Shown here one piece after another: positions 15,512-45,531 of a stretch of 64,000 nt of DNA; positions within the stretch are counted from its first letter, which is position 1; every line of letters starts with the position of its first letter. A program made the position numbers and the translations under genes. This DNA comes from Isoetes taiwanensis (lineage: Eukaryota; Streptophyta; Lycopodiopsida; Isoetales; Isoetaceae): the NCBI GenBank assembly GCA_021234155.1, contig JAJEKV010000003.1, positions 16,538,386 through 16,602,385 on the forward strand, in the 5' to 3' direction. The notes below the pieces were generated by a model, which worked only from the letters and a program-made list of their open reading frames with translations, made no database searches and was not told the DNA's origin.

Positions 15512-15684
15512 GACAAAACCCTAATTTGGAAAAATTTTAGGGTTTGGGGATAATCTATCATTCTGAGGTGCTGCTATGGAAATCATAGGCAAACTAGGTT
15601 AAAGAATGCATCCTAAGGATCCTATTGCAACAAATTTCATCTAATTTGGATGTAGTTGGGATAAGTTAGATCTAATTTGGTTTG

Positions 15685-18532: not shown

Positions 18533-20221
18533 CTAGAACATAAAAAGAGACAAGCATATATGATGATCCCAGTACCTTTTCAGGTGAATAGTGTTGATAG
18601 GATTTGGAAGTGGCATTCCTGAAGTTAATTCCTTTAACCAATAAGAATTGGTGCCTGCAGGTTCCAACACCTCATAGGGACCTTCCCAGAGGTTTTCAAA
18701 CTTACTAGCCGAGTCTTCCCTTGACTTATTCCATTTTAGAACTAACTCTCCAGTTTTGAAAGTTCCCTGTATTTTATGAGCAGCTTTGAAAGCAGCCAAA
18801 TCTTTGGCTTTTTTTAGCAGATTAGCATTCTCAGCTTCCATTCTATACTCCTCTAAATGTAAAAGGGTATCCAATCTTTCCTGCAAAGCATATTCAAAAG
18901 GCAAACATAACTTATGGGCTAACCTCAGAGATGGAAGCTCAAGTTCTACTGGAAGTACAGCTTCAATGCCATATACTAGATTGAAGGGTGTGTGAGTGGT
19001 TGCTGCTTTAATGGTGACTCTATAAGCCCATAGAGCATCCACCAGTTTGACATGCCAATCTTTTTTATTATCATCCATTGTTTTCTGCAAAATGCTTTTC
19101 AAAACTTTATTAGTAGCTTCTGCTTGACCGTTACCTTGGGGATAGTAGGAGGAGCTCTTGGTATGTTTGACCTTAAGAATGGTCAATAAATTAGCAATAA
19201 CGTCATTCACAAAAGGAGTACCTCTATCAGAATGCAATTGTAAAGGAATACCAAACCGTGCACAAATATACTCATGTAAGAACTTTGTTGTTGTAATGGC
19301 ATTAGCCTGTCTTAAAGGAATTGCCTCTGCCCACTTGGTAAAATAATCTGTAGCCACAATAATGTGCTGATGTTGTCCTGCAGAAGGGGGGTTAATAGGG
19401 CCAATATAATCTAATCCCCATATTTGGAAAGGTCCTGGAGAAATAATGGGGTTTAATGCAGCTGGGAGGAGGATCCTTTTGCCAAATATTTGACACTTGT
19501 GGCAAGATTTTATAGCAGTATAACAATCTTTGAATATTGTAGGCCAATAATAACCTGACCTGAGAATTTTCTTGGCAGTAGTATCTCCAGCAAAATGGCC
19601 TCCACATACTCCTTCGTGCATTTCTCTAATGATCAAGGCAGACTCCTCTTCATTGACACACCTCAGTAATAGTCCATCCCTGTTGACTTTACATAAAACA
19701 TCATTAATCATTTTAAATTGCCTACACTTTTCTTTAAATCTCCTTTGCTGGCTCGAGGTCAGCCCTGAGGGCATTTCCTTGAATTGAAGAAAATTCGTTA
19801 TAGGTAGCTGCCAATCCTGTTGGTCCTGTTCTTTATCATCTGCCTGCAGATAAGCTAAGGCATCCACAAGGTCAACAACTTCTACTGCATCCTCATGATC
19901 AAAGAAAATGTAAGGTAAATAAAGACTGGGACTCTTCACCTGATGTAACTCCTTTATGGAAATATCAAAGGTTTCTAGCTTGCAAGCCCACCTTTGAATT
20001 TTTGGTTTAGAGGTAGCCTTACCAAATAACAAACCTGTTGGATTTTGCTTCATATAAACTTGAACAGAACTCTTCAATAGTAAGTGACCTTGTCTGTCAA
20101 TGAGGAACATAAGAGCAGCAGCACTCTTCTCCATTCTGGTGTATTTTTCTTCAGTTGAACTCCACTGTTTGCTCGCAAAAGCTATGATGTGCTTGTCCTG
20201 CAGAATAGCTAGGCCTATGGC
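18533..20221 (-). pseudogene. RE-B degenerate RNase H plus integrase
   Basis: The 533-residue frame (18533-20134) starts inside an RNase H-like domain. KIQRWACKLETFDISIKEL matches the end of the Ty3 domain, but the TDH position is VYMKQN, so the catalytic aspartate is absent. The integrase follows. Its zinc-binding residues are H173, H180, C211 and C214 (HEGVCGGH...CHKCQ). The catalytic triad is D242 (GLDYIGP), D303 (HSDRGTPF) and E339 (GNGQAEATNK), giving DD35E spacing. The C-terminal part has LWEGPYEVLEP (GPY/F module) and no chromodomain. The frame is otherwise intact over 1.6 kb. A stop at 20222 separates it from RT. Confidence 0.9.
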
Positions 20222-21299
20222 TTAATCAGTGATGGTAATGTAGACCTCAAATGGCTTGTTCAAATCAGGTTTTTTTAGAAGAGTAGCCTCAGAAATGGAT
20301 TTTATAAGCAACTCAAAAGACTCCTGGCAATCTGATGACCATGTGACAGGGACATACTTGCTCTCAGATTTGGAAATCCTGCCTATCCTTGTCAACTTGG
20401 AAATAGGACTTATAATGTGAGCAAAATTAGGAATATACATCCTAAGAAAACTAGTCATGCCAATAAAACTTTTGACCTGCTTCAGATTTTTGGGGGGTAC
20501 CAGCTTTTTGAGAGCTTCAACTTTTTCTTGTGCCACTTGTATACCATTATTGGATACCTCATGCCCCAAAAGTTGCCCTTTGGATGCAAAAAAAACACAT
20601 TTCTTTGGGTTAAGATTGACTCCAAATTCCCTGCACAAAGAGCATATTTTTGCAAGCAATTCCAAATGATTAGTAGGGTGAGATCCTAAGCAAAGGTCAT
20701 CCAAATAAACTCTGAATTCTTGAGGAGACATAGGCCTTAAAATAACATCCATAGCTCTCTGGAAAGTAGCAGGTGCATTCATTAGTCCAAAAGGCATTCT
20801 CTTCATTGCATAAGTTCCCCAAGGGGTAATAAAAGAGGTCTTGGGTTGGTCTTCTTCCTTAATGCCAATTTGATTAAATCCTAAAAATCCATCTAGAAAT
20901 GAGTACACCTCTTTCCCTGCTACAACATATAAAATTTCTTCTAAAAAAGGCAAGGGATAGCAGTCCTTGATGGTAGCTTTGTTAAGATCTCGATAATCAA
21001 TGCAGATCCTTAAGGCACCACTTTTTTTCTCTACAGGTACAATGCAAGACACCCATCCTGGATTAATGATTTCAATAATAACACATGCATCTAGCATTTT
21101 ATCCAACTCATCTTTAATCAATCCCATCAATGAAGCATTAATTCTTCTCAGTTTTTGAAAAACAGGTTTACATCCCTCCTTAATCTTGATTTCAAATTGG
21201 CATACCTCAGCTTTAATACCAGTAAGCTCAGAATAATCCCAAGCAAACACATCTTTCCTTTCTTCAAAGAACATTTGTATATTCTCCCTATTTTGGTAT
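20222..21299 (-). pseudogene. RE-B reverse transcriptase (3' part of split frame)
   Basis: Downstream of the RE-C insertion point the frame runs FFEERKDVFAWDYSELTGI, then RICIDYRDLNKATIKDCYPL, FSFLDGF-type YSFLDGFLGFNQI, MPFGLMNAPATFQ, and the palm motif YLDDLCLG, then the connection region VKSFIGMTSFLRMYIPNF. The YLDD form with CLG after it is shared with RE-C. The frame is uninterrupted from the insertion point to the stop at 20222. The first ~25 residues of the open frame right of 21299 belong to the RE-C LTR and are not RT. Confidence 0.9.
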
Positions 21300-23687
21300 T
21301 GTTGAAGGCTTTTTTGGCAAAACCTCCAACCTAATGGTTTAGAACCTCCAGGTTGCTTAAGGCAACCACTCTGAATCACCAAAACCTGGAAAAGTCACTG
21401 AAATTTCAAGATCAGACTGCTTTCCCTGAAGCAAAAAAAATGGTCTGACCATAAACTTGTGCCATTTAAAATCAAATCAAGCAAATCAATTGATTTTTGA
21501 TAGAGATCTTCTTAACAGATGTGGGAATCGGTGTTCAAAAGTCTAGATAGAGCTGAGATAAGCAAGGTTCTCAAAATCACACTTCTGACTGGGTCAAAAA
21601 TTGGTCAATACCAGCAACAGCAAGCTATTTTTTGCAGATTGAAGATGGAACAAGTTTTTTTAGTTTTGGAAATTTGAGATATCTCTGACTGGTGTCTAGA
21701 TTGAAGGCAACTTAAAAATTGCAGGAAATTAACAACCTAAAGGGTAGAATTGATTAAAATCTCCTATCAGTCTGACTGTGCAAGAACCCGAGAGCAACTT
21801 TACCTAATATGAAATCTAATTGGCTTTTTTGTGTTTTTTTCAAGTGTATCAGTTCGGAAATACCCTCTAGTTATAGTGCATAAAAATTTCAAACTAAATT
21901 ATTTTTTAGTTTTCTGAAAATCAAGGATTAAACTCAAGAACAATCACCACACGAATTTTTTTCTAAGGTCAGATTTTCATTCAAGAAGCTATTCAAAAGA
22001 TCAACATCAATTTCCCTGAGTCTAATGGTCTCAGGAAAAACAATCAAACAGATCAAATTGTCAATAATCTCAAAAGTGGTCGATAATCTCAATAGCCCGT
22101 CAATTCTTCCGAATTTGGAGGCTAGAGGAGCAAATGCAGCTAGGAATCAGTCAATCCGGCTCGGAAAAGCTTCAAGTCGACGTTCTTCACGCATACAACC
22201 CCCGGAAAACAATGCAAGATCTCAATCCATCTTAAACGGCCCTGTTTCAGTTCAAATCTTGGCAAATTCCTGTTTGAAATTCAAATTTTTGTTTGTTTAT
22301 GAGTCGGTATGGATGCGTGTAGGTGAATGGAGGGTGCAGAGCTATGATTAAGCAGGTAATTCCAACCAATTTTCCGGATCTTGGCCTTCATCGAAAATTA
22401 GGGTTCTTGAAAAATAGTCCAAATATCCCACAGGCATGTTTAGAAAAGCAGACTAGTGTATAAAAGGAATTTTACCGCAATTTCTTCCGAATAAACGTGC
22501 CATTATGAAGGGGGAACCGGCCCGTGCCGTTCCCCCCATGCCCCATGGTGCCACGTGGAGGGTGTGGATTGGTGGATGAGTCTGGCGGGGGGGTGTAGAA
22601 AATGCTAGGTGGGGTAGAATAGGAAAATTTTTTTTTTTTTTATAGAAAGGCCGCGAATCTCAAGGCAATAATCCAAAGGCCAAGATAAAGGATATTAGCA
22701 TATTCTCCCATCTCAATTGGAATCTTTTGCTAGGAATAATTTTTTGCATAGCTTAACCATAGGATGTGAAATATGGCAAAAAAAAGATGACTAGGCAATT
22801 GTGATGGCATATGACATGGCAATGGTGATGACTAGGCAAATGACATGGCAATGTATCTTGACTCAATTTTTGTCTAGCCAAAAACTTTTTCAACTTATGG
22901 ATGTGGATGACACGTGTATGGCATATATGATGATGAGGAGGATGATGTGCAAATGACATGGCACTCCCAAGTGGCAATATTACATAGAATCATAATCAAC
23001 TTGAAAAATGGAAGCCCTTTAGCCAATTTTTAATTTTTTGAACTTGGGGATGGAGGGAGTATGATGTGAGTGATGATGAGGAATGATGGAGATGTGAGGT
23101 GGCTTCCAAGGTTATACGTGGCACAATGCCACCTTTATGCATAACTTTTGCAAATTTCTTGACCATTTTTCTTTTTGGAAGCTTATCATGGAAATGAATG
23201 TATGGAGTTATGGAAGAGATGAGAGTGAAGCTTTTTTGGCTAGACAAAAAATGTTGTCAATTGGAAAACAAGGTTGATTGAGGATGTACCAACTTGGAAA
23301 TCAAGGAAAGAAGGTGGTATGGGGTGAAATAATGGTATAGGAATTTGCCTCAATATGAACTTGATCTAGAGTTATTTTGCACATACCATGGAACTCTTGG
23401 GGGTCTTCAAAACCTTCTTATGTCTTCAAAGTAAATGTTTGTGTCCTTTGCTCTCTTGTTTGCTCAAATATGATGACTTGACTTTTTCTTGCTCCTTGTG
23501 ACCATTTAATTTGATCTAATGAAATAGCTTCCATGAATGTCCTTCCTTAGTCTTCATCAAAAAAATTCTTCAATGATCTGAAACAAAATAATCCTTCAAG
23601 AGTGTAATCAGCTTAAAATCAGCATTGGCAGCTTGTCTTCTTCTTGTGTTGTACAATTTCCTCTTGCTGCCACAAAATGTGGCAGCA
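21300..23687 (-). repeat. RE-C 3' LTR (2388 bp)
   Basis: In element orientation the LTR starts at 23687 with a perfect 10-bp-stem hairpin TGCTGCCACA-TTT-TGTGGCAGCA and ends CAACA at 21300. A 108-residue antisense frame (22025-22351) is present in both LTRs but has no recognisable domain. Differences from the other LTR are mainly one-base length changes in runs of T, A or G. Confidence 0.92.
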
Positions 23688-24700
23688 TCATGCTAAAAAA
23701 GAAAGAGGAAGCTGGTCTGCCAGCTCCCATACTTCAACCTCACAGCTTCAGCATGTTGAGAAGTTTGCCTTGATGGGAAGTTGAACTAGGCACTTCTGAG
23801 GGAAATGAATGTGGCAAGGAGTGAAGTCATATGGAATAAATAGGCCAACAAGTGAGCAGATGGAAGTATGACAATGGCTGGTGCACCTGCATGGAAATAA
23901 AAATGTTCAGCATTTGCAAGCCTGCTTGGTGGGATGTTGATTTGGCAGTGCTTGCTAAAGGGATAGGAATATGAAAAGAAGAGTATATGATAAGGCTTGA
24001 TGCTAGGTAGGACCACAAATGTGCAGATGAATGATGGCCAACCCGTGCACTCGCATGACAAATAAATATGATTAGCATTTGCAAGCCTGCTTGGTGGGAT
24101 GTTGATTTGGCAGTGCTTGCTAAAGGAATAGGAATATGAAAAGAAGAGTATATGATAAGGCTTGATGCTAGGTAGGACCACAAATGTGCAGATGAATAAT
24201 GGCCAGCCTGATGCACCTGCATGACAAATAAAGATGATTAGCATTTGCAAGCCTGCTTGTGTGGGATGTTGATTTGGCAGAGCTTGCTAGAAGGACATGA
24301 TCATGAAGTGAAGGTAAGGAATAAGGCTCGGATCTTTGGGCGGGGATCACTAATGCACAGATGAATGATGGTCAGACTGGTGAACCTGCATGGAAAATAT
24401 TCAACCTCTTGAAGACAACATCCCTGGACTGCTAAACCCTGTTAAAAGCTACACATGACATTTTAAGCAGTAACAAAGTCAGAATAATACTTAATCAATC
24501 ACAAAGAACATACGTAACAAAATGTTTTTGATGTTTTTGATGTTTTTATCTTTTTATAATTTTTTCTCAAAGTTGAATTTATGTCTAAACACACTTAAAT
24601 CCTAATTTAAGTTAAGGATGCATCTTCAGATTATGCAAACAAACATAGGGCAACATGTTGTTGCCAATACCTCTTCAAATGTAGAATGTTGATAGGATTT
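23688..24700 (-). repeat. RE-C 3' internal region with three ~166-bp tandem repeats
   Basis: The word CATTTGCAAGCCTGCTTG recurs at 23911, 24076 and 24242, giving a period of 165-166 bp over roughly 23870-24390. Each unit contains GGGATGTTGATTTGGCAG, an AAGAAGAG or AAGTGAAGG block and AATG-TGGCCA. The array creates open frames on the minus strand that repeat themselves and are not genes. No polypurine tract precedes the LTR at 23688; on the element strand the adjacent sequence is pyrimidine-rich. Confidence 0.8.
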
Positions 24701-24727
24701 GGCAGCTTATAGTTATCTTCCACGATC

Positions 24728-26110
24728 TTAACCAATTATGAATCTCGTCCCCGCTACACCTATAACTTCAAAAGGACCCTCCCATAAATTCTCAAATTTG
24801 CTTGCAACCTTCTCCCTTGCTTTATTCCATTTCAAAACCAATTCCCCTTCCTTGAATATTCCTTGGAGCTTGTGAGCAGCTTTAAAAGCTGCAACATCCT
24901 TGGCCTTTTTAATCATAACAGCATTTTCTGCTTCATATCTGTGCTCATCCAATTGCATCAGCCTTACACACCTTTCCCTCACACTTCTTCCATTTCAGTT
25001 GATTCTATGAGCCAACCTTAATGAAGGTAACTCGAGCTCTATAGGAACCACAGTTCCACACCATAAACCAAGCTAAATGGAGTATGATTGGTAGAATTTT
25101 TTACTGTAGTTCTATAAGCCCACAATGCATCATAAAGTTTTTCATGCCAATCTCTTTTTGACAAACTAACAGTTTTTTGCAATATGGACTTAAGAACCTT
25201 GTTTGTTGATTCTGCTTGGCCATTTCCCCTGTGGATAGTAGGCTGAACTCTTTACATGCTTAACCTTAAGGATCTCTAGGAGTGTAGCAATAACTTGATT
25301 TACAAACTGAGTTCCTCTGTCAGATATAATTTTAAAAGGTATCCCAAACCTGCTGCAAATATTTTCATGCAGGAACCTAGCAGTTGTAAAAGCATTTGCT
25401 TCCCTAAGAGGTACAGCTTCTGCCCATTTAGTGAAGTAATCTGTTGCAACCAAGATATATTGATGTTGAGCAGATGAAGGGGGATCTAAGGGTCCTATAA
25501 AATCCAAACCCCAAACTTGGAATGGTCCAGGTGATACAATGGCGATGAAGTGGTGTTTGGCTGTAATATTCTTTTTCCAAAAATCTGGCACTTATGACAA
25601 CTTTTAATTTTATTATAACAATCTTTAAACAAGGTTGGCCAAAAATACCCTGACCTCATGATCTTCTTTGCTGTAGTATCTACAGCATAATGGCCTCCAC
25701 AAATGCCTTCATGGCATGCCTCTATGATTAATTCAGCCTCACCCTTGTCAACACACCTGAGCAGCACCCCTTCTTTATCCACCTTGCATAGCACACCTTC
25801 AATGAGCCTAAAAGTTTTACACTTTTCCTTGAACCTCCTCAGCTGGCTGCTATTCAGATCTTTTGGTATCTCAGCATGCTCCAAAAAATTCTTAATGTCA
25901 ACCTGCCAATCAATCATCTCACTGCCAAAAGCTACTATGTTAGTTGTATTTTCCTCATTCAAACCTTCTTGATCTTCATACTTAAACATCATATTAGGCA
26001 AATAAGCACTAGGATCTTCAAGAACTTTAATTACTTTAATGTCAATATCATAATTTTGTACCTTACAAGCCCATCTGCATAACTTTGCCTTTGGTAAATT
26101 TTTGCAAACA
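24728..26110 (-). pseudogene. RE-C integrase, in three frames
   Basis: The frame at 25495-26001 has the zinc-binding region CHEGICGGHYAVDTTAKKI and SCHKCQIFGKR. The frame at 25190-25591 has the core with VWGLDFIGPLDPP, ATDYFTKWAEAVPL and ISDRGTQFVN. After a frameshift near 25230 (GKWPSR, where the conserved GNGQAE should be) the catalytic glutamate is out of frame. The frame at 24728-24982 has LWEGPFEVIG, the GPY/F module. There is no chromodomain. The normal role is insertion of element DNA; this copy is inactive as read. Confidence 0.85.
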
Positions 26111-26230
26111 ATAGTGTCAATGGGTTTTGCTTCATGAAAACACAGGTATGACTGTTAAGCGATAAGTGTCCATGCTTTTCCAATAAGAACATTAGTGCAG
26201 CAGCACTTTTTCTAATCTTTGATATCTAAG

Positions 26231-26857
26231 TTACGTGGTCGGACCATTTTTGCTTGAAAAGGCTATAATTCCATGTTCTGTGGCGGGGCTATACCTATGG
26301 CTCTCTTGGTCACACTTATATATGCAAAGGAAAGTTTTTGTAAGATCAGGAGGTTTTAAAATAGTAGGATTGCAAAGGGTTTCTATAATTTCCTCAAAAG
26401 CTCTCTGGCAAACATCATCCCATTTTATAAAAATATACTTACTCTCTTCCTTGGAGTATTTACCAACCCTGGTCAACCTGGCTATAGGACAAATAATGTG
26501 TGATAAGTGAGGCACATATATCCTAAGAAAACTTGTCATCCCCATAAAACCTTTAACCTTTTGAGGGTTTTACGTGGTGTCAACTTCTTCAAGGCTTCCA
26601 ATTTCCTACTGACCACCACGGATCCCTTGAGTTGATATCTCATGTCCAAGAAGATCCCCTTTAGAACAGAAGAAAACACATTTCTTAGGATTTAGGCTCA
26701 CTCCACTTCCCCTGCATAATGAACATATTTTTGTTAGCAAACTGAAATGATCTCTGATAAATGTGCCTAAACACAAATCATCCAGAAACACCACAAGTAA
26801 TTGTGTGCATCTCCTTGAAAATAGTGTCCATAGCTCTCTGAAAAGTGGCAGGAGCAT
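26231..26857 (-). pseudogene. RE-C reverse transcriptase, C-terminal half
   Basis: The frame at 26606-26857 carries the palm motif FLDDLCLG and NPKKCVFFCSKGDLLGHE, and 26231-26545 continues with MGMTSFLRIYVPHLSHIICP. These match the RE-B segments one for one. Small indels near 26600 and 26800 break the frame from the N-terminal half at 26778-27923. Confidence 0.85.
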
Positions 26858-27923
26858 TCATTAGTCCAAAAGGCATTTTTTTCATTGCAAAATTACCCCA
26901 AGGTGTAATGAAAGCAGTCTTTGGTTGATCCTCCTCCTTTATGCTGATTTGATTGAAACCTGAAAAACCATCCAAGAATGAAAACATTTCCTTACCTGCT
27001 ACTGCATATAGCACTTCCTCTAAAAAAGGTAGAGGATAACAGTCCTTAATTGTGGCTTTGTTGAGCTCCCTATAATCAATGCATATCCTAATTGTCTTAT
27101 TCTTTTTCTCAACAGGTACTATACAAGATAACCATTCTGGATTCATAATTTCTGCTATTACCCCAGCATCCTTCATCCTATTCAATTCTTCCCTAATCAA
27201 GGTCATCAATGATCCATTTATCCTCCTCAGTTTTTGTATTACTGGCTTAACTCCTTCCTTTGTTTTTATCTCAAATTCACAAATCTTCTTGTCAACCCCT
27301 TTCAGCTCATCATAATCCCAAGCAAATACATCACTCCATTCTTCAAAAAAATCTCTTACCCTACTCTCATCCTCTTCCTGAAATAAATCCCCTACATAAA
27401 GAGTCCTTTCCTGATTATTCTTTTTTATCTTCAGCTCCCTGGCCTGTTTTTCCTCACTAGCATTAATCACTAATATGGGATACAACTGCTGTAATTCTTT
27501 CCTCTCCAATTCTTCCTCATTGATGGCACCTTCAGCTAGATGCTCTAATAGAACATTCTGCAAAAGTGCATCAGCCTCTGAATTAAACTCCCTTGGTATA
27601 TGATGTATCTCCCATCTTTTGAAATCCAATAATTCTCCCAAAACTTCATCCCTTAAGAAAATCATATCCGGATTCTTTGACTGATATTCTCCCAATACCT
27701 GTTTGCAAACAAGCTGAGAATCTCCAAATATAACCAGCTCATTAATTCCCAAATGTTTGGCTTCTTGTAAGCCTGCTAATAGAGCTCTGTATTCTGCCAC
27801 ATTTGATGTTATCCCCTGAGTAAATTCTGCCAACTTTAGCCAAAAGCTTGTTAGAGTTATCTCGATAATTGCGAAGAAGCGAAGAACATTCAATTTTTTT
27901 GATATACCTCCATCAAACCACAT
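26778..27923 (-). pseudogene. RE-C archaeal-type RNase H fused upstream of reverse transcriptase
   Basis: One 381-residue frame begins with an RNase H of the archaeal/plant type: WFDGGISKK (first catalytic D), SNVAEYRALLAGLQEA (E), VIFGDSQLVCKQV (D), and EFNSEADALLQ (final D). After about 90 linker residues comes RT: FEIKTKEGVKPVIQKLRRIN, RICIDYRELNKATIKDCYPL, FSFLDGFSGFNQI and MPFGLMNAPATFQ. Ty3 elements normally place RNase H after RT, and in Tat-lineage elements the extra archaeal-type domain also follows RT. Here it precedes RT, as in RE-B. The frame is continuous across the two domains, so the order is not an assembly join. Confidence 0.9.
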
Positions 27924-28059
27924 GTATGCATGTTCACCAGATTTTTTAGCTTACCCTCTTCTATTGAACATGTTGCAATTGTAGGAACAAAATCTCATAT
28001 TCTCCACAAGGATTTTGGGATAGCATGTCTATCTCTAAGAAATTTAAGGCCTCCAGTTC

Positions 28060-28566
28060 TCAAACCCGTTGTAGAGAGTCACTTTCTTTTTCCCATCTGA
28101 AATAATACATTCTCCCTTGGACCACACCGGCCTTGCATCCACAGTAGACAACCATTTCCTGCCCAAAAAGTAGATCATAAATATCAGTATTCTCATCAAC
28201 CCCTTCAAAAGCTACCACCACAAAACTAGCAGCCACAATAATACCCTCAATGTCAACTAAAACACTACTAATTATCCCTATAGGATGAATTTTTGTGTTA
28301 GAGAATGATTTCAAAACCATAGGTGCTCGTCTATCACATTCCAAACCACAAGATTTCATTATGTGATGTGGCATCACATTCAAAGGGGAACCACCATCTA
28401 ATAATACTTTGGTTAGAACCTTTTTACCAATGTTTGCAACACAAGTAAAAGGCCCCGGATCAGCATCATCACCGGGATAATACAAGCTCACCAACATGAT
28501 TAGTAAACATATCCTCTTTTTTTCCTCATTTAAACTCAACAACTTTTTTTTTGTAAGAGGGAGCAA
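28060..28566 (-). pseudogene. RE-C aspartic protease
   Basis: The frame includes GPFTCVANIG, KVLLDGGSPLNVMP (active-site loop, with DGG in place of the usual DTG or DSG) and AAFVVV-type ASFVVVAFEGVDENTDIYDLL (flap and C-terminal half). RE-B has the same LLDGGSPLNIMP motif, so the substitution is a lineage trait. It would cleave the polyprotein. The last ~30 residues drift out of the conserved frame (FGQEMVVYCGCK where RE-B has GRRWLATVDARP), showing a frameshift. Confidence 0.8.
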
Positions 28567-28598
28567 TCCTTAGCAAGGTTAGTAAGTCTATGCTTATC

Positions 28599-29105
28599 TT
28601 AGAATTTTTTTAGCAAAATCTCCAAATCTTCTCCTTCTTTATCTTTTCTTGCAAATTTTTGGGTGGAGGAGGTTGGTACTACCCTAATAATTTCATCTTT
28701 CCTCTCCTTATCTTGATGAACAACTTTTTTGAGCAAGGGGATGAGATAATACCTGATTGCCTTCAAAATCTTTACCTCTTTACTGCATTCCCTTCTTTGG
28801 TTACAAATTACGCTTCTTTGCCTTTGGATTCCAAATTCCTCGAGTGTGTACAGCCAAAATCTCTTCTTGATCCTCCATTTCTGCACAAATCGATAGATGC
28901 ACTTGTTTACATTTGCTTTGGCTAACTCTTGTCTAGCAAAATACTCTTTGACACTACACTTATCTTCAAGATGACCTATGCCCTTACAAAAAGTACAAAC
29001 AGGACATTCTTTACCATAATGCCCTCTCCTACCACACTTAAGGCAAGGCCTATAATAACAAACTTCAGAAGAATGACTATCCCTTAGACAATGAATGCAT
29101 GGGGG
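28599..29105 (-). pseudogene. RE-C gag C-terminus with zinc knuckles and linker
   Basis: On the minus strand at 28925-29105 the translation has CIHCLRDSHSSEVC, KCGRRGHYGKEC and CTFCKGIGHLEDKC, giving CX2CX4HX4C nucleic-acid-binding knuckles that match three in RE-B gag. They are not in the same frame as the gag body. A lysine-rich linker frame (28599-28886) follows before protease. Confidence 0.75.
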
Positions 29106-29154
29106 AAAGACCCTTTTCTCGGTTTGGATGCCTTCAACTCTTGAAGTTGTTTAG

Positions 29155-30029
29155 TCACTTCAGCCAATGCCTCAAATGCATCTTGAGCAACTTCGGATTT
29201 TTGAATCTGCGGTGGGGATAATTGCCTCCTCGGCCTTGGTAGTTCTCTTCTCCTTCACACGGCATAGATTGGCACTGATGTTGTGTATTCCTGTTCAAAT
29301 TCTGGTGAAAAGGATCATTAGTAAATCGCATCATAGGTTCATTGAGCGAGAAATAAACATCTGCTAATTCTGTAGCTTTAGTAAAGGCCTTATGTATGGT
29401 GTCAAATCCTTCAGAATCCTGTATCCTGGTCATCTTCTTGTGCACCCTAGGTCTGTCACTTAATCCATTTATAAAAGCTGCTACTAAATCCAAAGTATGA
29501 TGGAGGACATGCTCAGTTTGGCATTTTAACAAATATGCATTAAACCTTTCTGTATATTGATGAATAGTCTCACCATGCTTGATGTGGAATGAGTGTAGCT
29601 CCAGAGCTAATTCTCTTGGCTTAACCAATTTCCCAAATCTGGTTAGAAACTTAGGCACAATATCTTCCCATGTTCTAGTACCTAAAGCAGTCACATAATC
29701 CAACCATGCTCTTACCTCCTCATTCTTGAAACATTTCTTGAATTCTGAGAGCTTGCAGCCTTTCTTGTGTCCATAATCCTGGTAATATTCCTCAAAAACC
29801 TTCAAAAATAATTAGCATTTATGCTAGGATCAAAAGTTGGTGCGAGAACCGGCACACTAAGCTCATAAGATTGATGGAGACAAGTGTTCCCCAATACATT
29901 GATTCCTTGGGGCCGCAGTGAGAACTCTCGGGGTTTTCTTGTGCCTCTGGCTGCTTTCAAGATGATCATTTCCCTTCTTGGTGCCATTAATTCTTCTTCA
30001 AAGTATAGTAATCCCGGTAGGACCTCCAA
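29155..30029 (-). pseudogene. RE-C gag, matrix/capsid region
   Basis: It opens with a frame at 29802-30029 that includes MAPRREMIILKAARGTRKPR and PTFDPSINANYF. After a one-base frame change it continues at 29155-29805 with FEEYYQDYGHKKGCKLSEF, KPRELALELHSFHIKHGETI, HQYTERFNAYLLKCQ and LVAAFINGLSDRP. These are retrotransposon_gag-family features (the QF.. MRQ../HQYTERF segment). The start is set at MAPRR because it lies just after the primer site and RE-B has the matching MAPKQKFP. Confidence 0.85.
30011..30028 (-). promoter_or_regulatory. RE-C primer-binding site, tRNA-Gln
   Basis: Three bases after the LTR end the minus strand reads TGGAGGTCCTACCGGGAT. Its complement ATCCCGGTAGGACCTCCA equals the 3' end (T-stem, acceptor stem, CCA) of a plant tRNA-Gln as I recall it. 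Confidence 0.75.
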
Positions 30030-30031
30030 AA

Positions 30032-32416
30032 TGTTGAAGGCTTTTTTGGCAAAACCTCCAACCTAATGGTTTAGAACCTCCAGGTTGCTTAAGGCAACCA
30101 CTCTGAATCACCAAAACCTGGAAAAGTCACTGAAATTTCAAGATCAGACTGCTTTCCCTGAAGCAAAAAAAATGGTCTGACCATAAACTTGTGCCATTTA
30201 AAATCAAATCAAGCAAATCAATTGATTTTTGATAGAGATCTTCTTAACAGATGTGGGAATCGGTGTTCAAAAGTCTAGATAGAGCTGAGATAAGCAAGGT
30301 TCTCAAAATCACACTTCCCGACTGGTCAAAATTGGTCAATACCAAAGAATGACAAGCTATTTTTGCAGATTGAAGATGGAACAAGTTTTTTAGTTTTGGA
30401 AATTTGAGATATCTCTGACTGGTGTCTAGATTGAAGGCAACTTAAAAATTGCAGGAAATTAACAACCTAAAGGGTAGAATTGATTAAAATCTCCTATCAG
30501 TCTGACTGTGCAAGAACCCGAGAGCAACTTTACCTAATATGAAATCTAATTGGCTTTTTTGTGTTTTTTCAAGTGTATCAGTTCGGAAATACCCTCTAGT
30601 TATAGTGCATAAAAATTTCAAACTAAATTATTTTTTAGTTTTCTGAAAATCAAGGATTAAACTCAAGAACAATCACCACCGCGAATTTTTTCTAAGGTCG
30701 ATTTTCATTCAAGAAGCTATTCAAAAGATCAACATCAATTTCCCGAGTCTAATGGTCTCAGGAAAAACAATCAAACAGATCAAATTGTCAATAATCTCAA
30801 AAGTGGTCGATAATCTCAATAGCCCGTCAATTCTTCCGAATTTGGAGGCTAGAGGAGCAAATGCAGCTAGGAATCAGTCAATCCGGCTCGGAAAAGCTTC
30901 AAGTCGACGTTCTTCACGCATACAACCCCCAGAAAACAATGCAAGATCTCAATCCATCTTAAACGGCCCTGTTTCAGTTCAAATCTTGGCAAATTCCTGT
31001 TTGAAATTCAAATTTTTGTTTGTTTATGAGTCGGTATGGATGCGTGTAGGTGAATGGAGGGTGCAGAGCTATGATTAAGCAGGTAATTCCAACCAATTTT
31101 CCGGATCTTGGCCTTCATCGAAAATTAGGGTTCTTGAAAAATAGTCCAAATATCCCACAGGCATGTTTAGAAAAAGCAGACTAGTGTATAAAAGGAATTT
31201 TACCGCAATTTCTTCCGAATAAACGTGCCATTATGAAGGGGGAACCGGCCCGTGCCCGGCCCCCATGCCCCATGGTGCCACGTGGAGGGTGTGGATTGGT
31301 GGATGAGCTGGCAGGGGGGGAGGTAGAAAATGCTAGGTGGGGTAGAATAGGAAAATTTTTTTTTTAATTTTTATAGAAAGGCACGAATCTCAAGGCAATA
31401 ATCCAAAGGCCAAGATAAAGGATATTAGCATATTCTCCCATCTCAATTGGAATCTTTTGCTAGGAATAATTTTTTGCATAGCTTAACCATAGGATGTGAA
31501 ATATGGCAAAAAAAGATGACTAGGCAATTGTGATGGCATATGACATGGCAATGGTGATGACTAGGCAAATGACATGGCAATGTATCTTGACTCAATTTTT
31601 TGTCTAGCCAAAAAACTTTTTCAACTTATGGATGTGGATGACACGTGTATGGCATATATGATGATGAGGAGGATGATGTGCAAATGACATGGCACTCCCA
31701 AGTGGCAATATTACATAGAATCATAATCAACTTGAAAAATGGAAGCCCTTTAGCCAATTTTTAATTTTTGAACTTGGGGATGGAGGGAGTATGATGTGAG
31801 TGATGATGAGGAATGATGGAGATGTGAGGTGGCTTCCAAGGTTATACGTGGCACAATGCCACCTTTATGCATAACTTTTGCAAATTTCTTGACCATTTTT
31901 CTTTTTGGAAGCTTATCATGGAAATGAATGTATGGAGTTATGGAAGAGATGAGAGTGAAGCTTTTTGGCTAGACAAAAAATGTTGTCAATTGGAAAACAA
32001 GGTTGATTGAGGATGTACCAACTTGGAAATCAAGGAAAGAAGGTGGTATGGGGTGAAATAATGGTATAGGAATTTGCCTCAATATGAACTTGATCTAGAG
32101 TTATTTTGCACATACCATGGAACTCTTGGGGGTCTTCAAAACCTTCTTATGTCTTCAAAGTAAATGTTTGTGTCCTTTGCTCTCTTGTTTGCTCAAATAT
32201 GATGACTTGACTTTTTCTTGCTCCTTGTGACCATTTAATTTGATCTAATGAAATAGCTTCCATGAATGTCCTTCCTTAGTCTTCATCAAAAAAATTCTTC
32301 AATGATCTGAAACAAAATAATCCTTCAAGAGTGTAATCAGCTTAAAATCAGCATTGGCAGCTTGTCTTCTTCTTGTGTTGTACAATTTCCTCTTGCTGCC
32401 ACAAAATGTGGCAGCA
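30032..32416 (-). repeat. RE-C 5' LTR (2385 bp)
   Basis: It is the partner of 21300-23687, with the same terminal hairpin at 32394-32416 and the same CAACA end at 30032. On the plus strand a TATAAAAG box lies in the GTGTATAAAAGGAATTT segment near 31185, which is antisense to the element. Confidence 0.92.
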
Positions 32417-32421
32417 GGTAT

Positions 32422-33326
32422 TCAATTAGATCTCCAACAAACAAGGTTCTAGTCTTACCATTTTTTGTGATGGTAATCTCTTCAGTATCCTTTTCCTCTG
32501 ATGCATTAATGGTTAGAATAGGACAAAGAGCCTTTACCTCACTAGCATCAAGGTCTTCCTCTGGAATAGCTCCCTCAGTTAGGTGTGACATAAGAGTTTC
32601 TCTGCATAGGGCATCAGCTTCCACATTTTTCTCTCTTGGTATGTGGGTAATCTCCCATGAAGCAAAACTCGAAAGTACTCCCATTACTTGGTTTTTTAAG
32701 AGCTCCATATCTGCATTTTTTGTTTGGTAGTCTCCTGAAACTTGTCTACAAATTAATTGTGAATCACCAAAAATGTGAATGTTGGCAATATCCATAGCTT
32801 TGGCTTCCTGAAGACCTGCAATTAAAGCCTTATATTCTGCTACATTAGATGTAATTTGGGGGAAGATTCTCCCTACTTTAGCTAAAAGTTTATGAGAGGA
32901 ATCTTTCAGAATAGCAGATGATGCAATATTTAGTTTTTTAGAAATACCTCCATCAAACCATAAGAATCCTGATGGCCCTTGTTTGCTGGGGAGTGCACAT
33001 TCCATAATGAGAGGAACCATTTCACATTTCCTTGGTCTTGTATTTTTTATTCTGTAAAATCCCAAAGGTTCTTCAATTAGCATTTCTTTGATAAAGTTTA
33101 CCTCTTCATTGGAACCATAGGAGCCATCTTGATTATAGATTGTAGCAGTTTGAGAACCATTGGAGATGGTACATCTCCCTTGAGACCAGACTGGTCTAGC
33201 ATCCACAGTGGCTAACCACCTTCTTCCTAAAAGTAAATCATAGATATCAGATTCATCCCCTATGTCTTCAAAAGCTACCACAATAAAATTAGCAGCTATA
33301 GTTATGCCCTCTGTATTGACAGGCAC
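32422..33326 (-). pseudogene. RE-B protease C-terminus and archaeal-type RNase H (5' part of split frame)
   Basis: After a single stop codon at 33327 the frame continues in phase with the protease flap region (AANFIVVAFEDIGDESDIYD, LLGRRWLATVDARPVWSQ). The RNase H follows: WFDGGISKK (D125), SNVAEYKALIAGLQEA (E164), IFGDSQLICRQV (D188) and EKNVEADALCRE (D238), counting from residue 1 of this frame. All four acidic positions are present, so this domain looks catalytically complete, unlike the post-RT domain. The frame reaches RTLFVGDLIEY and is then cut by RE-C. The final codons inside 32337-32416 belong to the RE-C LTR. Confidence 0.9.
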
Positions 33327-34634
33327 TTAAGTTACCACACCAATAGGGGTGATCTTAGCATTATAAAAAGATCTCAATAGTATAGAAGCTTTCTTATCCA
33401 CCTCGAAACCACATTTTTTCATAATGTGATATGGCATAATATTTAGGGGGGATCCCCCATCAAGTAACACGTTTGAGAAGGTATAACCTCCTAAAGTAGC
33501 TGAACATGTGAATGCACCAGGGTCTTCTTCATTCTGTGCTAGAACAAGGTTAGTGGCATCAGTGAAATTCACACAAGCATTTAATACCTCACCACTAGTT
33601 TGCTGCAGTACCCTTTTTCTATAGCTAGGTGCAATCTTTAGCAATGTGAAAAGATCCACACTCACCTTGGAATTTTTAAGCAAAACATCAACCTCATCAA
33701 AGTCTTGATCTTTCTTACCATATTTTTGCTGAGGGGGTGGAGCTATAATTTGAGCAGGTGCTTCCACTACAGGTGGTGAAGACCTGGCAGTAGAATGCCT
33801 ACTTGGTTCAGCATGTGCATGAGCTTCATTCATGCTTCTAGTTTGCACCACCATAACTTCTTCAGATTTGGGAGCTTCTGTAGCTTGAATAAACCTTATA
33901 GAGGTGCTTGGTTCAGCAAATCTCACAGGAGGTTTAGGCTCTGGTCTCCTTTCTTTTTCCTGCTTAGCAAAATATTCCTTAACAGCACACCTAGCATCAG
34001 TATGGCCAACTTCTTTGCAAAAAGAACAAACAGGACATTCCTTTCCAAAGTGGCCTTTTCTATTACATTTGGGATACACTTGCCAATAGCAAATTTCTGA
34101 TGGATGAGAATTCCTATTGCAATGAATACATTCAGGGTAAATTTTACCTGTTCTTGCAGCCTTGAGTTCAACCAATTGTTTGGTTATTTCTGCTAAAGCT
34201 TCAGTAACCTTAGATAGATCTGACTTCACCTCTGCAACTTGAGAATTTGCTTCCTCCTCTTTAGATTTCTTCTTTTCTTTCTGTATGGCATAAACTGGAA
34301 TAGAAGGGTGATGATCATAATGTGCATCAGTAGCATCAGGGTAAAACGGGTCATGGCTATGGTGAGGAACATGGTGCTTGTCAGGTAAGGTAGAGAGCAT
34401 CTGAGTCAAGTCAGTAGTTTTGGCAAAAACTTTGTATATAGAATTAAATCCTTCAGCAGCTTGGATCTTGAGTGGTCTTCTTTCCAGACCATTGATGAAA
34501 GCAGTAACTAAAAACAGAGTTGGGATGGTGACTTGTGCTCTTTGACACCTGCTCATAAATGTACTAAACCTCTCCTTGTACTGATTCACACTCTCACCTG
34601 CATGTATATAGAAACCTTGCAACTCATTAACCAA
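33327..34634 (-). CDS. RE-B gag (C-terminal two thirds) and protease N-terminus
   Basis: The 435-residue frame begins in the capsid region (LQGFYIHAGESVNQYKERF, LVTAFINGLERRP). It has a coiled-coil-like stretch (VKSDLSKVTEALAEITKQLV) and three zinc knuckles: CIHCNRNSHPSEIC, KCNRKGHFGKEC and CSFCKEVGHTDARC. It then enters protease with GGYTFSNVLLDGGSPLNIMP. Gag assembles the particle and binds RNA, and protease would process it. One stop codon (TAA at 33327) interrupts the otherwise continuous frame into the next segment. The stated start is only the first in-frame Met; the real gag start is further upstream in a broken frame. Confidence 0.85.
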   Translation of the reverse strand: MVNELQGFYIHAGESVNQYKERFSTFMSRCQRAQVTIPTLFLVTAFINGLERRPLKIQAAEGFNSIYKVFAKTTDLTQMLSTLPDKHHVPHHSHDPFYPDATDAHYDHHPSIPVYAIQKEKKKSKEEEANSQVAEVKSDLSKVTEALAEITKQLVELKAARTGKIYPECIHCNRNSHPSEICYWQVYPKCNRKGHFGKECPVCSFCKEVGHTDARCAVKEYFAKQEKERRPEPKPPVRFAEPSTSIRFIQATEAPKSEEVMVVQTRSMNEAHAHAEPSRHSTARSSPPVVEAPAQIIAPPPQQKYGKKDQDFDEVDVLLKNSKVSVDLFTLLKIAPSYRKRVLQQTSGEVLNACVNFTDATNLVLAQNEEDPGAFTCSATLGGYTFSNVLLDGGSPLNIMPYHIMKKCGFEVDKKASILLRSFYNAKITPIGVVT

Positions 34635-35006
34635 ATCTTTTGGAGCAGCTAACTTACCAAACCTGTCCAGGAACTTCTTGACAAGAAGTGGTACCCATTA
34701 ACTTTTCATAAGTTAACCAAGCACCAACTTCACTTTCTTCTTTGAAACATTTTTCAAATTCTGAGAGCTTGCAGCCCTTCTTGAAGCCATAATCCCTGTA
34801 AGTAGTCCTCAAATATTCTCAAAAAGTTGTTAGCACTCATACTGGAATCAAAAGTAGGCAAAGGAACAGGAACATTCAACTCAAATTGGTATGGCATGTT
34901 TTAGTTGAGAAACTTGAATTCAATGGCCTTTCTCTGCAATGATCTGATGCATCAATATCTTCTAATGGTTCTTGTTCTGCTGGAAATTTTTGCTTTGGAG
35001 CCATGA
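34635..35006 (-). pseudogene. RE-B gag N-terminus, frameshifted
   Basis: Translation from MAPKQKFPAEQEP near 35004 and the later segment with FELNVPVPLPTFDSSMSANN, FLRIFEDY and then YGFKKGCKLSEFEK-like sequence covers the expected gag start. A one-base insertion after the FEDY codons and further breaks near 34700 and 34920 shift the frame. Confidence 0.7.
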
Positions 35007-35024
35007 GTTCTGAAATCCAGGAAG

Positions 35025-35042
35025 ATCTCGGTAGAACCTCCA
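35025..35042 (-). promoter_or_regulatory. RE-B primer-binding site, tRNA-Gln
   Basis: Three bases after the LTR the minus strand reads TGGAGGTTCTACCGAGAT. Its complement ends AGAACCTCCA, fitting a tRNA-Gln whose acceptor begins GGTTCTA. It differs from the RE-C site by three bases, so the two elements may use different Gln isoacceptors. Confidence 0.7.
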
Positions 35043-35045
35043 AGA

Positions 35046-36942
35046 TGTTGACCCCCAACCTGGCTAGAGAGTCAAACACAAGAAGCCAACTTGAGTTTTT
35101 ACTCAAGTTGGGGTTAGAACCTCCAGATCACTTAAGGTGATCAGTCTACACAAGAATTTCTCAGGGGAAAAGCTCAGTTATCAAGTATTCATACCTTTCC
35201 CAATTCTAGAATATGGAGCCCTTACTCAAGTCGATGTAGCTCTCATAGGCGGATTGATTTCCAGGGTCAAGTGATTGTGACTTGTACAGAAAAGTTATAG
35301 GCAAGCAAGAGTGAAAACCTTGACCAAGTTTGAGTTTTAATCTGCAAGATATTCGATCTCAAAGTTGGGTCAAATTTTGGTCAATATCAGTCAAAACTAC
35401 AAACAGATCTCAGAGTTTTGTAACTTGAGTTGCAGATAAAATTTTGAAGAGATTCCAAAAGTGCAGTATAGGTCCCAAAGGTGAGGGGCATGTAATCAAA
35501 TCATAATTTGGATCACTAAAACTATTTTTTTGGGACTGTTTTGTGAATATCAGTCTAAAATTGTATCAGACAGAATGCAAAAAATGGTAACTTGAGTTTG
35601 AGATGGATTTCTTTCGAAATTTTTGTGCACACAGGTGCAAATATGATAAGAAAGGAAGTGCAAATGGTCATATGCAAGAAAAAATGAAGGGATACTTCAC
35701 TGTAAAAATGTTTGTGATGCAAAAATACTAAAGGATCATGACAGTCAACTTTTTAAATACTTGGCAGGCAATTTTCATTGAAATGAAGGTAATATACGGT
35801 GAATAAGAGTCTTAGGATCATAGATCAATCATCAAGATAGCTTAGGAGGTCAATAAATAATATCAAATCAAGAATATCAGTCCAATTTTCTCAAATCGAA
35901 CTGTGGAACACTCAGATACTTCATGAACGTCTTCAGGTCATGCTCAGCATGTATCAATGTTGAGGTTTGATGCGTCTGGGCCTTCAAAAACTTCTGTCAT
36001 TGTTTTCCCCGGTATATAGATTTAGATTTAATGATTCTGGCATCTTAGGACTTGATTATAGGCTTAATGGGATGCTGATGAGCGGGAATCCAAGAATAGG
36101 TAGTTTTTGTAGCTTAAGATCCCAATTCCGGCGTGATTCGAGCAAGTTTCTAAGTTTAGGGTTCTTCAACTGTATTTTTCCAGAGTTTGCGCGATACGGT
36201 GGCCGTATTTTTTGAGGTATAAACCAAGAATATGCTGTATTTAGCCATTTCGAAAAGCTAGGCCATGGTTCAATAGAGATCCAAAAATAATTATGAAGTC
36301 ATTTGGGTCTATAGTAACCCTAATAATTTGGGAAATATGCTAGGTAGATACCAAGACTGGAATATTCCATGGGGGATACTTGGGTGGCATGGGTAATTAG
36401 GCCACATTTGGTAAATGAAGTGAGGGAGCATAAGAATTTGCAAATAAGGGTTGGGCTAGGGACATTTGCAAGAATGTAATATGGAAAAAATGAGAGAAAA
36501 GATATGGAATGGGAAGATCATCCATTGGGGTGAACAAAAGGCCTTTAGAAAAGAAGGATTTAGGCAAGCATGGTGCAATTGGCAAAAAAGTGAACATGGG
36601 AAGATATAGGCATGAGAGAAATATGACTAGGAAAATTTTGAAATGGAGGTAAGAATATGGATAAAAAATGGCTAGGAGGTGGAATCAAATACCATGGGGT
36701 CTTCCAAACTTCAAAAAGCATCTTCCAATCTTCACAACCCAGAATATCATAGAGCATCTTTTGAATACTTTTGACCTCAGATAAAGCATCTTCCATAGGA
36801 GTTGACCTTTGAAGATTAATATTGGTTGACCTTCATATCAATGTTGACTACCAAGCTCTTTTTTTATTTAACTCTTCCACAATAACTTGACCTACTTCAA
36901 TACATGAACCAACAGTTAGTATGTTGCCCTTTGGGGGCAACA
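35046..36942 (-). repeat. RE-B 5' LTR (1897 bp)
   Basis: It is the partner of 15731-17649. The start in element orientation is at 36942 with the same TGTTGCCC...GGGCAACA hairpin, and it ends at 35046 followed by the primer site. GAATG follows at 36943-36947. Confidence 0.92.
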
Positions 36943-38252: not shown

Positions 38253-38284
<32 letters not shown>

Positions 38285-42158: not shown

Positions 42159-43272
42159 CTAACAGTCTTCTTTCTTAATAAACCTAGCTAGTTTCATGTC
42201 CCTAGGCATACAAGTTACTCTATTTGCATGGAGGGCACATGGTAGAGAGTCTTCAAAATGTTGGACTAGCTTCTGCTCCGCCGCCTCCTGTAATACGAGT
42301 AACATATCATCTGTTACTCTCTTCGTGCTGTCGAACTGCTGCAAAATCTCGCGGGTCAGTCTCACGAAGGCAGCTCGTGGTATTAACAGCCCGTAGCTCC
42401 TTTGAAAATGGCGGATCTCCCAAGCAGCTCTCGCGAAGTATGAATCCGCCTTTCTCTTCATTGGCTTCTTTGGGGGTGTTGGTCTCTCCGGATGTTACCT
42501 TGTGCTTCTCGTAGTACGTCGAGTACTCATACATTTTCATGTATTGATTGTACCCCTTCAACTTCTTTCTGCACTCTTGCTCATGCTTGAGTACATAGGA
42601 CTCTCGTGCTGGCCTGCCCTTCTTCGGGTCTGTTGTTGGCTTTGGCCACTTGGGGTAAGGGGGTGCTGCTGCTGCCGATTCCTCCTCCTCGGCGTCGACA
42701 TTTGAAGGTCCCGAGCCTTTAATTGGGTGGGGGACCCTTGTCTCCTCCTCGTCCAACTTAGTGTCCGAGGATGAAGATGGCAGTCTGTCGGGCTCCCGCT
42801 CCGTTATGGTGACCCCCTTAGCTGGTGTAGACTTCTTCTTGCGCCGGGGTTCCTTAGGCACCTCGGGATCCTTCCCTTTGTCCTCTTTTCGCTTTTGGCG
42901 TTCTTGCCTCAGCCTCTTCTGCTCCATCTTCTCTTGGATTCTCTTTCTCTTTGCTGCCCTCTTCCTCTTCCCCATCTTCTCAATCTTCTTTCTGCGCACC
43001 ATCTTCTCTGGTAGATCTTCGTCCTCGTCCTCCTCGTTCTGTCCTCCATCACCCTGACTCTCAGGATTTTCCTGCTCTTCCGTATCTTGGGCGTGTTCTT
43101 CTTGATCCTGCTGCTCTTGATCCTCCTCCTCGACATCGGGATTTGGGTCCGGGTTCTCCTCTTGCCTGGCTCGCTCCTGAGTCTCTCTGGCCTTCTGTTG
43201 AGTAGCAAGGACTTGGGCGCTGACGAAATCATCAGGTACTACCATCCGAGCATTTTGTTTGGTCCGGGCCAT
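42159..43272 (-). CDS. Histone H3-like protein with long charged linker, encoded within RE-A
   Basis: The start at 43272 is the first ATG after the TATA box at 43376-43384 and sits in AAACATGGCC. The protein begins MARTKQNARMVV, matching the H3 tail except T6N and K9M (numbering without Met), then AQVLATQQKARE resembling H3 QLATKAARK. Next come an acidic block (EENPDPNPDVEEEDQEQQDQ), a basic K/R-rich block and a proline/serine linker. The last ~95 residues (42159-42461) are an H3 fold: EIRHFQRSYGLLIPRAAF (alphaN/alpha1), REILQQF, then LLVLQEAAEQKLVQHFED (alpha2), and CALHANRVTCMPRDMKLAR (loop 2/alpha3). The fold aligns to H3 without gaps and has H3-length loop 1. EIRHFQ and LLIP recall CENH3. 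The tail/linker and fold are in frames that differ by +1 and meet near a CCCCCAAAG run at about 42470-42485. It is intact if that is a sequencing error or programmed shift. Function is unknown; a chromatin role is inferred. Confidence 0.8.
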
Positions 43273-44001: not shown

Positions 44002-44013
44002 GCTCTGATACCA
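44002..44013 (-). promoter_or_regulatory. RE-A primer-binding site, initiator tRNA-Met
   Basis: One base after the LTR end the minus strand reads TGGTATCAGAGCATG, the classic plant retrotransposon site complementary to the 3' end of tRNA-iMet. Confidence 0.92.
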
Positions 44014-44014
44014 C

Positions 44015-45531
44015 TGTGACATCCCCTACTTCCTCTACAATGCTCCCATCATATCAGAAGGCGGAGTTCATCCCCCTGACAGCCAAACTGGCAAGGGCCA
44101 TCCACCTGACACCAATCCCAAGTGGATGGGTCATTTGCCCCGTCTTCCTTCGGGATCGACCTAGCTGCGGAAGCGTGAATAAACATGAGCACATGACATC
44201 AATACATCAATAAGATCACCTCGAAGGGTGAATACACCATAATATAGCATGAGTGACAACATCAACATAAATAATAGCAACAAAAGGGAATCCTACCCAG
44301 GGCTCAGACTCATGGGGAATCGACTGACGGCTTGGGTCTCCAGAAGTCAATGCAGACTGAATTCATGGCAAATGGATTGGTCTGGTATAAGAACATGGCT
44401 GTTGGGTAGTCCACATCCGCCCCTCCCGTGCACACTTTGCAAAGTAGGTTGAAAAGTATTGGGACCGGACCGTAGCCTGCCGGGTACATAGCCAAGGGGG
44501 ATATTGCTGGGTTGCATCTCCCCAGCCCCGATGAGGCAGGAGGAGAGTCACCTCCCCTCCAGAGGCATGCATGCCCATCACAGGCGGCTAGAGGGCCACT
44601 GCCCATATTCGACTTGAACCCCATTGAAGGTGACGCATCACCCAAGAGGTGTCGAGCTCATGCCTTGCCCACACGCAGTGGCAAACCATTAAGCCTAGTC
44701 CACTAAGATCCCTGGTAGGCTTTACACACCAGAGGGATCAATCAGTGATGGGACAAGTCCCCCTTATTCCACTGGTCTAGCCCCGCCACCCACAACCAGG
44801 CGGGCTCTTGCACACGGGCCGCATTAATTTGGAATTAATGAGGCTATATAGATACATCAACTACTGAGGCTTTCAGGGTCTCTACCCCCCTTCCCAATAC
44901 ACAGGAGAGCATCTATCAAAGAACATCATCATCATCAAGACTGAAATATAAAATAACATCTAATCTATCTACCTAAACATCCACAGTTAGGTTCCTTTGT
45001 TAGGGCTTATGATCTCAGAATCTATAAGGCTTCTAAGGCTGAACTAACATGCTAAACCAGCTCATTGCCGGACTAAAAGTTGGCATTGCACAACAGAATG
45101 ACCATTTACCTGATCCCTGACTTGCTCCAGCTCCTCGGAATGCGTCCATGCCTTCAATCAGGCTGAAGGCAGATGCTCCTGGAAGATCTGTTGTGCAAAT
45201 GCGGCTTATCGGCGCCTGGCAATGCGAACTAGGATCTTGGCTTGGCCGGAATGGCCCAAGGAAGCCAAAATGCGAAAGGGAAAAGGTTTAGGGTTTCCCT
45301 TTTGGTTCCTTATATGGGAACTTTTAGGGTTAGAGTTAAAAGGGATCAAATGGGTTATTGCCACTTGGCAAGGGGAGTTATTGTATATGTTTATTACGCA
45401 TGCACAACATCCGAGGTTGCCCCCCTAGGTAAACCCTTCACGGCTCTCACGTACTTGTCATGCTGACATGTACGTGTGACGTGGCAGTATAATATACGTA
45501 TTCAGATCGTATGTTATACTGGAACGTCACA
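44015..45531 (-). repeat. RE-A 5' LTR (1517 bp)
   Basis: It is the partner of 9254-10711. It begins in element orientation TGTGACGTTCC at 45531 and ends GTCACA at 44015 next to the primer site. ACAGC follows at 45532-45536. Confidence 0.88.

Follow-up and report, generated by a model that had tools for sequence, protein, structure and literature searches.

Single H3 genes are carried by several DNA viruses, among them xenomavirus, Dishui Lake phycodnavirus, sylvanvirus and others (PMC9145170). According to the sections covered of this review on viral histones, the folds of these proteins are 73-87% identical to host H3, some have longer N-terminal tails, and the chaperone site reads SAIL or TAIL (PMC9145170). 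The same sections report that bracovirus H4 (CpBV-H4/CvBV-H4) enters host nucleosomes, and the terms retrotransposon, retrovirus and RNA virus have 0 occurrences in the review (PMC9145170). The word histone has likewise 0 occurrences in a review on the additional ORFs of LTR elements in plants (PMC7264820), in the Isoetes taiwanensis genome paper (PMC8566536) and in the I. sinensis genome paper (PMC10541799). A preliminary description of the DNA analysed here knew of no described LTR retrotransposon with an H3 gene. This agrees with the open-access literature as judged by titles and the openings of abstracts among the papers listed, in which no retroelement-encoded histone was found and exact phrases gave 0 papers. 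The H3-like gene considered in the following is, in comparison, part of an LTR retroelement of I. taiwanensis.

The RE-A element and its H3 gene

The window, i.e. the whole stretch of 64,000 nucleotides under study, contains an LTR element termed RE-A, the parts of which all lie on the minus strand. Its 5' LTR (44015..45531, with TG...CA ends) pairs with a 3' LTR at 9254..10711; the two diverge by a K2P distance of 0.046 (1431 sites), and the flanking sequences ATAGC (9249-9253) and ACAGC (45532-45536) match in 4/5 bases. The primer binding site TGGTATCAGAGC (44002..44013) was read from the sequence and presumably fits initiator tRNA-Met. What remains of ORF2, a conserved element protein to which Pfam gave no match, was located at 14665..15548 by tblastn with the relatives L014 and L020. 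It is followed by a frame-broken aspartic protease region (14396..14761; Pfam RVP_2 was found on L014), the reverse transcriptase (RT; 13378..14190, Pfam RVT_1 E 5.6e-39), a region from RNase H to the start of the integrase (12741..13211), and the integrase with a C-terminal chromodomain (11407..12600). The latter is split into two frames (12600-12220 and 12159-11407), and Pfam detected SH3_Tf2-1 (E 2.5e-21) and Chromo (E 2.8e-08) on 11407-12159. A polypurine tract inferred from the sequence (10712..10725) adjoins the 3' LTR. By this gene order, which is the one expected for Ty3 elements (PR-RT-RH-INT), and by the integrase chromodomain, RE-A is a Ty3/gypsy chromovirus. No gag was found in the window copy, where the ORF2 remnants pass nearly straight into the protease.

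The H3-like gene, of the kind referred to below as type I, occupies 42159..43272. As initially described, it lies on the minus strand between the 5' LTR with its primer site and the pol genes, and it copies the H3 tail at its start: the first residues are MARTKQNAR (43246..43272), which in other copies mostly read MARTKQTAR. They are followed by a linker in which acidic stretches precede basic ones, and by the C-terminal H3 fold from alphaN to alpha3, which together with a short lead-in forms an open frame of 111 aa (42162..42494). The gapless alignment to H3 claimed for this fold was borne out, since it matches Pfam Histone PF00125 with E 7.7e-20 and its best PDB match is an H3.3 chain (E 3.2e-19, gapless over 88 residues). 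One point has to be corrected: compared with the intact relative L015, 47 nt are absent near 42491, a deletion that the preliminary description overlooked and because of which the tail and linker are in a different frame from the fold. One open frame for the window gene is therefore rejected. With the H3 frame split and gag missing, the window copy of RE-A is dead; the RE-A family itself is not.

RE-A is interrupted by other insertions. A nested LTR element with further nesting, separate from the H3 element, spans 15731..36942 (direct-repeat pair 15731-17649/35046-36942), and this region includes, at 32337-34697, domains for gag and RNase H that belong to another element. Two transposase-like ORFs on the minus strand (236 and 438 aa), inserted in RE-A at 37500-39719, look hAT-like to us; Pfam found no transposase in them. 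A GA-rich (purine-rich) degenerate repeat with nine copies of a 94-nt unit was seen elsewhere in the window (54100-55407).

Copies and families in the host genome

The host genome (1,658,258,908 bases in 1110 contigs) was searched with the window fold, which gave at least 150 scored matches with 77-100% identity, the window included; this is a lower bound, as 7860 candidates appeared at first look. Twenty type I loci, picked mostly for long open frames, were fetched together with flanks of 3.2-3.5 kb on the upstream and 6.2-6.5 kb on the downstream side. The exact 12-mer primer site was present in the first 2 kb of 11 of these 20 loci, and also in L037 (type II) and two type III elements; the distance from primer site to start codon was 641-764 nt in the copies measured. 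The gene order in the fetched copies is PBS - H3 - ORF2 - gag - pol. With L010 left out as near-identical to L009 and the window element added, ORF2 was matched in 17/20 loci, gag in 9, RT in 7 and integrase in 6, all of them lower bounds, with slices that often stop short of pol. The integrase match of L028 and one ORF2 match of L013 sit upstream of the H3 gene and are therefore ascribed to a different element or insertion; in L013, ORF2 is also present downstream of the H3 gene. The pair L009 and L010 (G000:C907:46161456-46171455 and 46744953-46754952) lies 0.58 Mb apart on one contig and is alike in H3 frame length and in the place of the primer site, which suggests a segmental duplication.

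The converse search started from the RT. The 16 longest open frames among 142 scored RT matches (31,915 first-look candidates) were used, and at each locus the 1.3 kb expected to contain the fold were read. An H3 fold was present 4.2-5.5 kb upstream in 13 of the 16 slices, in one open frame in eight of them and broken in five. It was absent from the slices of L054, L045 and L048. The first contains ORF2, so that any fold would fall outside it; the second contains LTR-like DNA, so that the H3 gene is missing or displaced; the third gave no match. A chance position of the H3 gene beside LTRs is rejected by this result. The long acidic-then-basic linker of the preliminary description was found again in the full-length copies read, except for L041, in which it is largely deleted. 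That the gene belongs to the chromovirus, which had been made dependent on other copies carrying it, holds as well, since they do so at the same place. Judged from these copies, the H3 gene is a regular part of the elements, and it is so in three families.

The proteins of all three families have about 380-430 aa, with a linker of roughly 270-320 aa that contains acidic and basic stretches. Type I, the type of the window, starts with MARTKQTAR, has 378-415 aa (seven copies, each read over its full length from MARTK), and shares 47/90 residues of the fold with host H3 (L012). Type III starts with MARTKQTARKP, and the two copies that were read from the first residue onwards have 423 and 427 aa; the type III fold shares 52/90 residues (L046), and the RT frames of the two copies have 1214 and 1608 aa. 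The N-terminal part of type II (MAITK or MANT...) differs from that of H3, the protein has 409-425 aa, and the fold is 79/90 identical (L033). Among the 150 matches listed for a canonical H3 query, 15 were host genes (96-98%) and 135 were not, 49 of the latter with uninterrupted frames of at least 400 aa. The seven non-host matches that were read (L030-L036, with L032 contained in L037) are all type II, while the type of the remaining ones is assigned by identity and frame length.

Downstream of the H3 gene, one type II copy continues with ORF2, another ORF, a Gag-Pol frame of 948 aa (capsid, protease and RT), an insertion and the integrase; the chromodomain of the type II integrase was recognized by Pfam (Chromo, E 1e-07). 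In the type II element L038 the RT is interrupted by an insertion at about 5090-6350, and in L037 neither gag nor pol was seen within its slice. The pol parts of type II and type I are 47-84% identical and L037 has a relative of ORF2 (a weak match, E 1e-06), and the types are therefore taken as one lineage. The first 230 residues of the type II protein (L033:318-1577) gave no Pfam match, omega over the first 200 aa is 0.069, and a low-confidence model would place a small five-strand sheet and long helices in this part. Three further matches to canonical H3 with 72-76% identity and short frames (G000:C1038:4667665-4668072, C1033:11216679-11217056 and C1077:2561977-2562354) extend into the tail, from residues 3, 12 and 11, respectively; these could represent variants of the host H3, retrocopies or a further type of element.

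Selection, residues and descent

Omega values (Nei-Gojobori, on individual unmended copies; pairs non-independent, open-frame copies chosen, pol samples small and many dS near saturation) were 0.071 for the type I fold (21 sequences, 150 of 210 pairs with usable dS; 0.066 in another computation), 0.023 for type II (6 sequences, 15/15 pairs; 0.026 in another computation) and 0.009-0.068 for type III (8/15 pairs with finite dS), in line with the expectation of a dN/dS below 1 across copies that had been put forward beforehand. The rest of the H3 protein has omega 0.166 in type I (118/136 pairs) and 0.121 in type II (10/15). In the same kind of elements, 0.057 was obtained for the RT (4 sequences), 0.055 for the capsid (4 sequences, 4/6 pairs), and 0.082 and 0.224 for the first (6 sequences) and second part (4) of ORF2. 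ORF2 itself, which fills the interval between H3 and gag, is conserved at L014:4534-5457, L020:4838-6217, L038:200-1293 and window 14665-15548. Silent change in the folds was large (median dS about 0.9-1.0) and protein change small, a pattern that dead copies would lose; the fold was therefore under selection while the copies diverged. On these comparisons, purifying selection acts on the H3 fold about as strongly as on RT and capsid.

The H3 tail peptide is kept over the first 8-10 residues in types I and III, followed by the long linker, and is not present in type II. In 25 rows of type I starts (L003/L028 and L005/L027 each being one locus twice, L009/L010 near-identical, L014 read out of frame and three loci without a start), 24 have retained K4, and position 9 is occupied by Met, Ile, Val or Leu. 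Lysine occurs at this position in L050 and L041, both found from the RT, and in type III (MARTKQTARK). The loss of K9 is therefore special to the window-like part of type I, and silencing evasion via K9 loss is rejected as a general rule. The comparison of contact sites covered nine H3-H3' and eleven DNA-contact residues of H3, of which the former are largely kept. In one copy of each type, the H3-H3' residues are the same as in the host in 9/9 (II), 8/9 (III) and 7/9 (I) cases, and those in contact with DNA in 11/11, 7/11 and 7/11, respectively. The chaperone site at 87-90 reads FAIL in type II, EALL or EMLL in type III, DMLL in type I and SAVL in the host, and types I and III have a proline at R63. 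A profile search together with structure prediction had been proposed as a check on the fold, of which the former gave the PF00125 match; the structure models were poor (mean pLDDT 61 and 53). Foldseek linked the type II model to nucleosomal H3 at 2.9e-07 with a TM-score of 0.10, probably as a result of its near-canonical sequence, and found no match below 0.001 for the type I model.

Types I and III may descend from canonical H3 or from CENH3, and the element H3s may go back to one capture or to two. In the tree, type II groups with canonical H3, and types I and III form one clade. A descent of the latter two from CENH3, with an action at centromeres such as steering the element there, is suggested by the position of this clade in the tree with outgroups, where it joins Arabidopsis CENH3 (support 96/94.7 for type I and 86/87.8, not starred, for I and III), and by the motifs EIRHFQ, LLIP and, in type III, VTLMR, which are shared with Arabidopsis CENH3. 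However, the branches concerned are long, and a single clade of all element H3s was not rejected (p-AU 0.061 and 0.135). The CENH3 fold has a longer loop 1 than H3, and this insertion is absent from the element folds: those of types I and II align gaplessly to H3, and that of type III is of equal length. Furthermore, the best 60 of 174 PDB chains for the type III fold are all named H3 or H3 variants, the N-terminus of types I and III is of the H3 type, and a host CENH3 was not located in the genome search as judged from its overall ranking, which shows host H3 and element-like matches. We therefore regard a CENH3 descent combined with a centromeric action as unlikely.

Possible roles and comparison with known systems

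The identity, anatomy and selection of the element H3 can be taken as close to certain. With regard to its function, we propose that an autonomous Isoetes chromovirus lineage took up a host H3-class gene, which would have become the first gene of the element, between the primer site and gag. Its position as the foremost open frame on the genomic RNA would favour good translation. Because the fold and the contact residues are kept, the protein may pair with host H4 and form (H3-H4)2 tetramers, and it could enter such tetramers and nucleosomes on element cDNA, on new insertions or on target chromatin. The long charged tail would then project from the nucleosome and display K4, together with K9 in type III, at a large distance from the core. 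On element cDNA and new insertions, the protein could resist silencing; at target chromatin, it could mark sites that are read by the chromodomain integrase. For the fungal element MAGGY, a chromodomain that binds H3K9me2/3 is reported in the part covered of PMC3350952.

The steps of this proposal differ in probability. A deposition in nucleosomes is predicted and is favoured slightly; the differences of types I and III from the host at 87-90 and the proline at R63 speak against it. Provided that deposition occurs, a role in anti-silencing or targeting is fairly probable, although the Lys 9 kept in type III, L050 and L041 argues against anti-silencing via K9. Taken as a whole and up to a presumed deposition, the statement that the transposons encode a nucleosomal H3 variant whose tail is oversized appears moderately likely. 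More tentative, and somewhat short of an even chance, is the wider reading that these elements have their own chromatin, in which an H3 variant (with a CENH3 origin possible in two of three families) and host H4 assemble on the DNA of the elements or at target sites into nucleosomes that are private or re-marked and thereby resist silencing or direct integration.

Other explanations of the gene have to be weighed against deposition. A structural or packaging protein of the particle, the linker and fold of which, with host H4 or on their own, condense cDNA or RNA in the particle or tether the pre-integration complex to chromatin and which is not a lasting nucleosomal histone, would fit a first gene beside ORF2 and gag, the long charged linker and an integrase that bears a chromodomain. 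On the other hand, Gag already has a zinc knuckle, and both the 79/90 host identity of type II and the kept H3-H3' residues exceed the needs of packaging, so that we consider such a role rather unlikely. The strong conservation of K4 and its neighbours in types I and III could also point to a decoy or mimic, the ARTKQTAR(K) N-terminus or the fold of which occupies host H3 readers, writers and chaperones with no nucleosome assembly. Type II does not have the peptide, yet its fold has an omega of 0.023; since this type lost the peptide but keeps the fold, the fold is the common need of the types, and a decoy is quite improbable. Host H3 is multi-copy (the 15 listed matches with 96-98%), and host H3 genes or pseudogenes might lie beside LTRs by chance. 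The constant place of the gene relative to primer site and RT, with the fold at 13/16 RTs, a protein of about three times the length of H3 and the RT-like constraint make this explanation scarcely credible.

The nucleosomal H3 variant that we favour would have several implications. Core histones are known from host genomes and some DNA viruses, and a retroelement H3 with RT-like constraint would be a new kind of element-encoded protein, which would give a direct handle on the contest between transposons and host chromatin. It makes testable whether a parasite may substitute a component of the nucleosome and thereby evade or redirect silencing, and it provides natural H3 variants with tails near 300 aa in which K9 is kept (type III) or lost (most of type I). 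If the private-chromatin reading were true, the host genome would contain parasitic histone genes by the hundreds or more, which would conflict with its own H3. For annotation, H3-like genes in such a genome may mostly belong to transposons.

An ordinary chromovirus carrier and single H3s in DNA viruses are already known; of a core histone that forms a standing part of a retroelement, no description was found in the open-access literature. The Isoetes elements have the LTRs, primer site, gag (capsid and zinc knuckle), PR, RT, RNase H, integrase and chromodomain of chromoviruses in the same order, but differ by the H3 gene and a conserved ORF2 before gag; to our knowledge, no chromovirus with either of them has been described. 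With CENH3/CENP-A, types I and III share several residues (compared with the Arabidopsis sequence), whereas the absence of the loop 1 insertion, the H3-type N-terminus and the long linker set the element H3s apart. As in the sections covered of the viral-histone review, a parasite carries one H3 with identity to the host (79/90 in type II) and an altered chaperone site, which in type II (FAIL) resembles that of the viral single H3s and in types I and III does not (PMC9145170). In contrast to those DNA viruses, with tail extensions of 35 and 53 aa (PMC9145170), the carrier here is an LTR retroelement, with a linker near 300 aa, three families and a high copy number. Bracovirus H4 is, according to the same sections, also a host-derived histone with an extended N-terminus, but it is an H4 with 38 added residues, is derived from a DNA virus and acts on the parasitised insect (PMC9145170). 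Finally, maize Bs1 and other LTR elements with captured host genes likewise contain a sense-oriented gene of host origin, as far as covered in PMC7264820; in comparison with these, the Isoetes H3 is full-length, is found at the same place across three families and is under a constraint like that of the RT.
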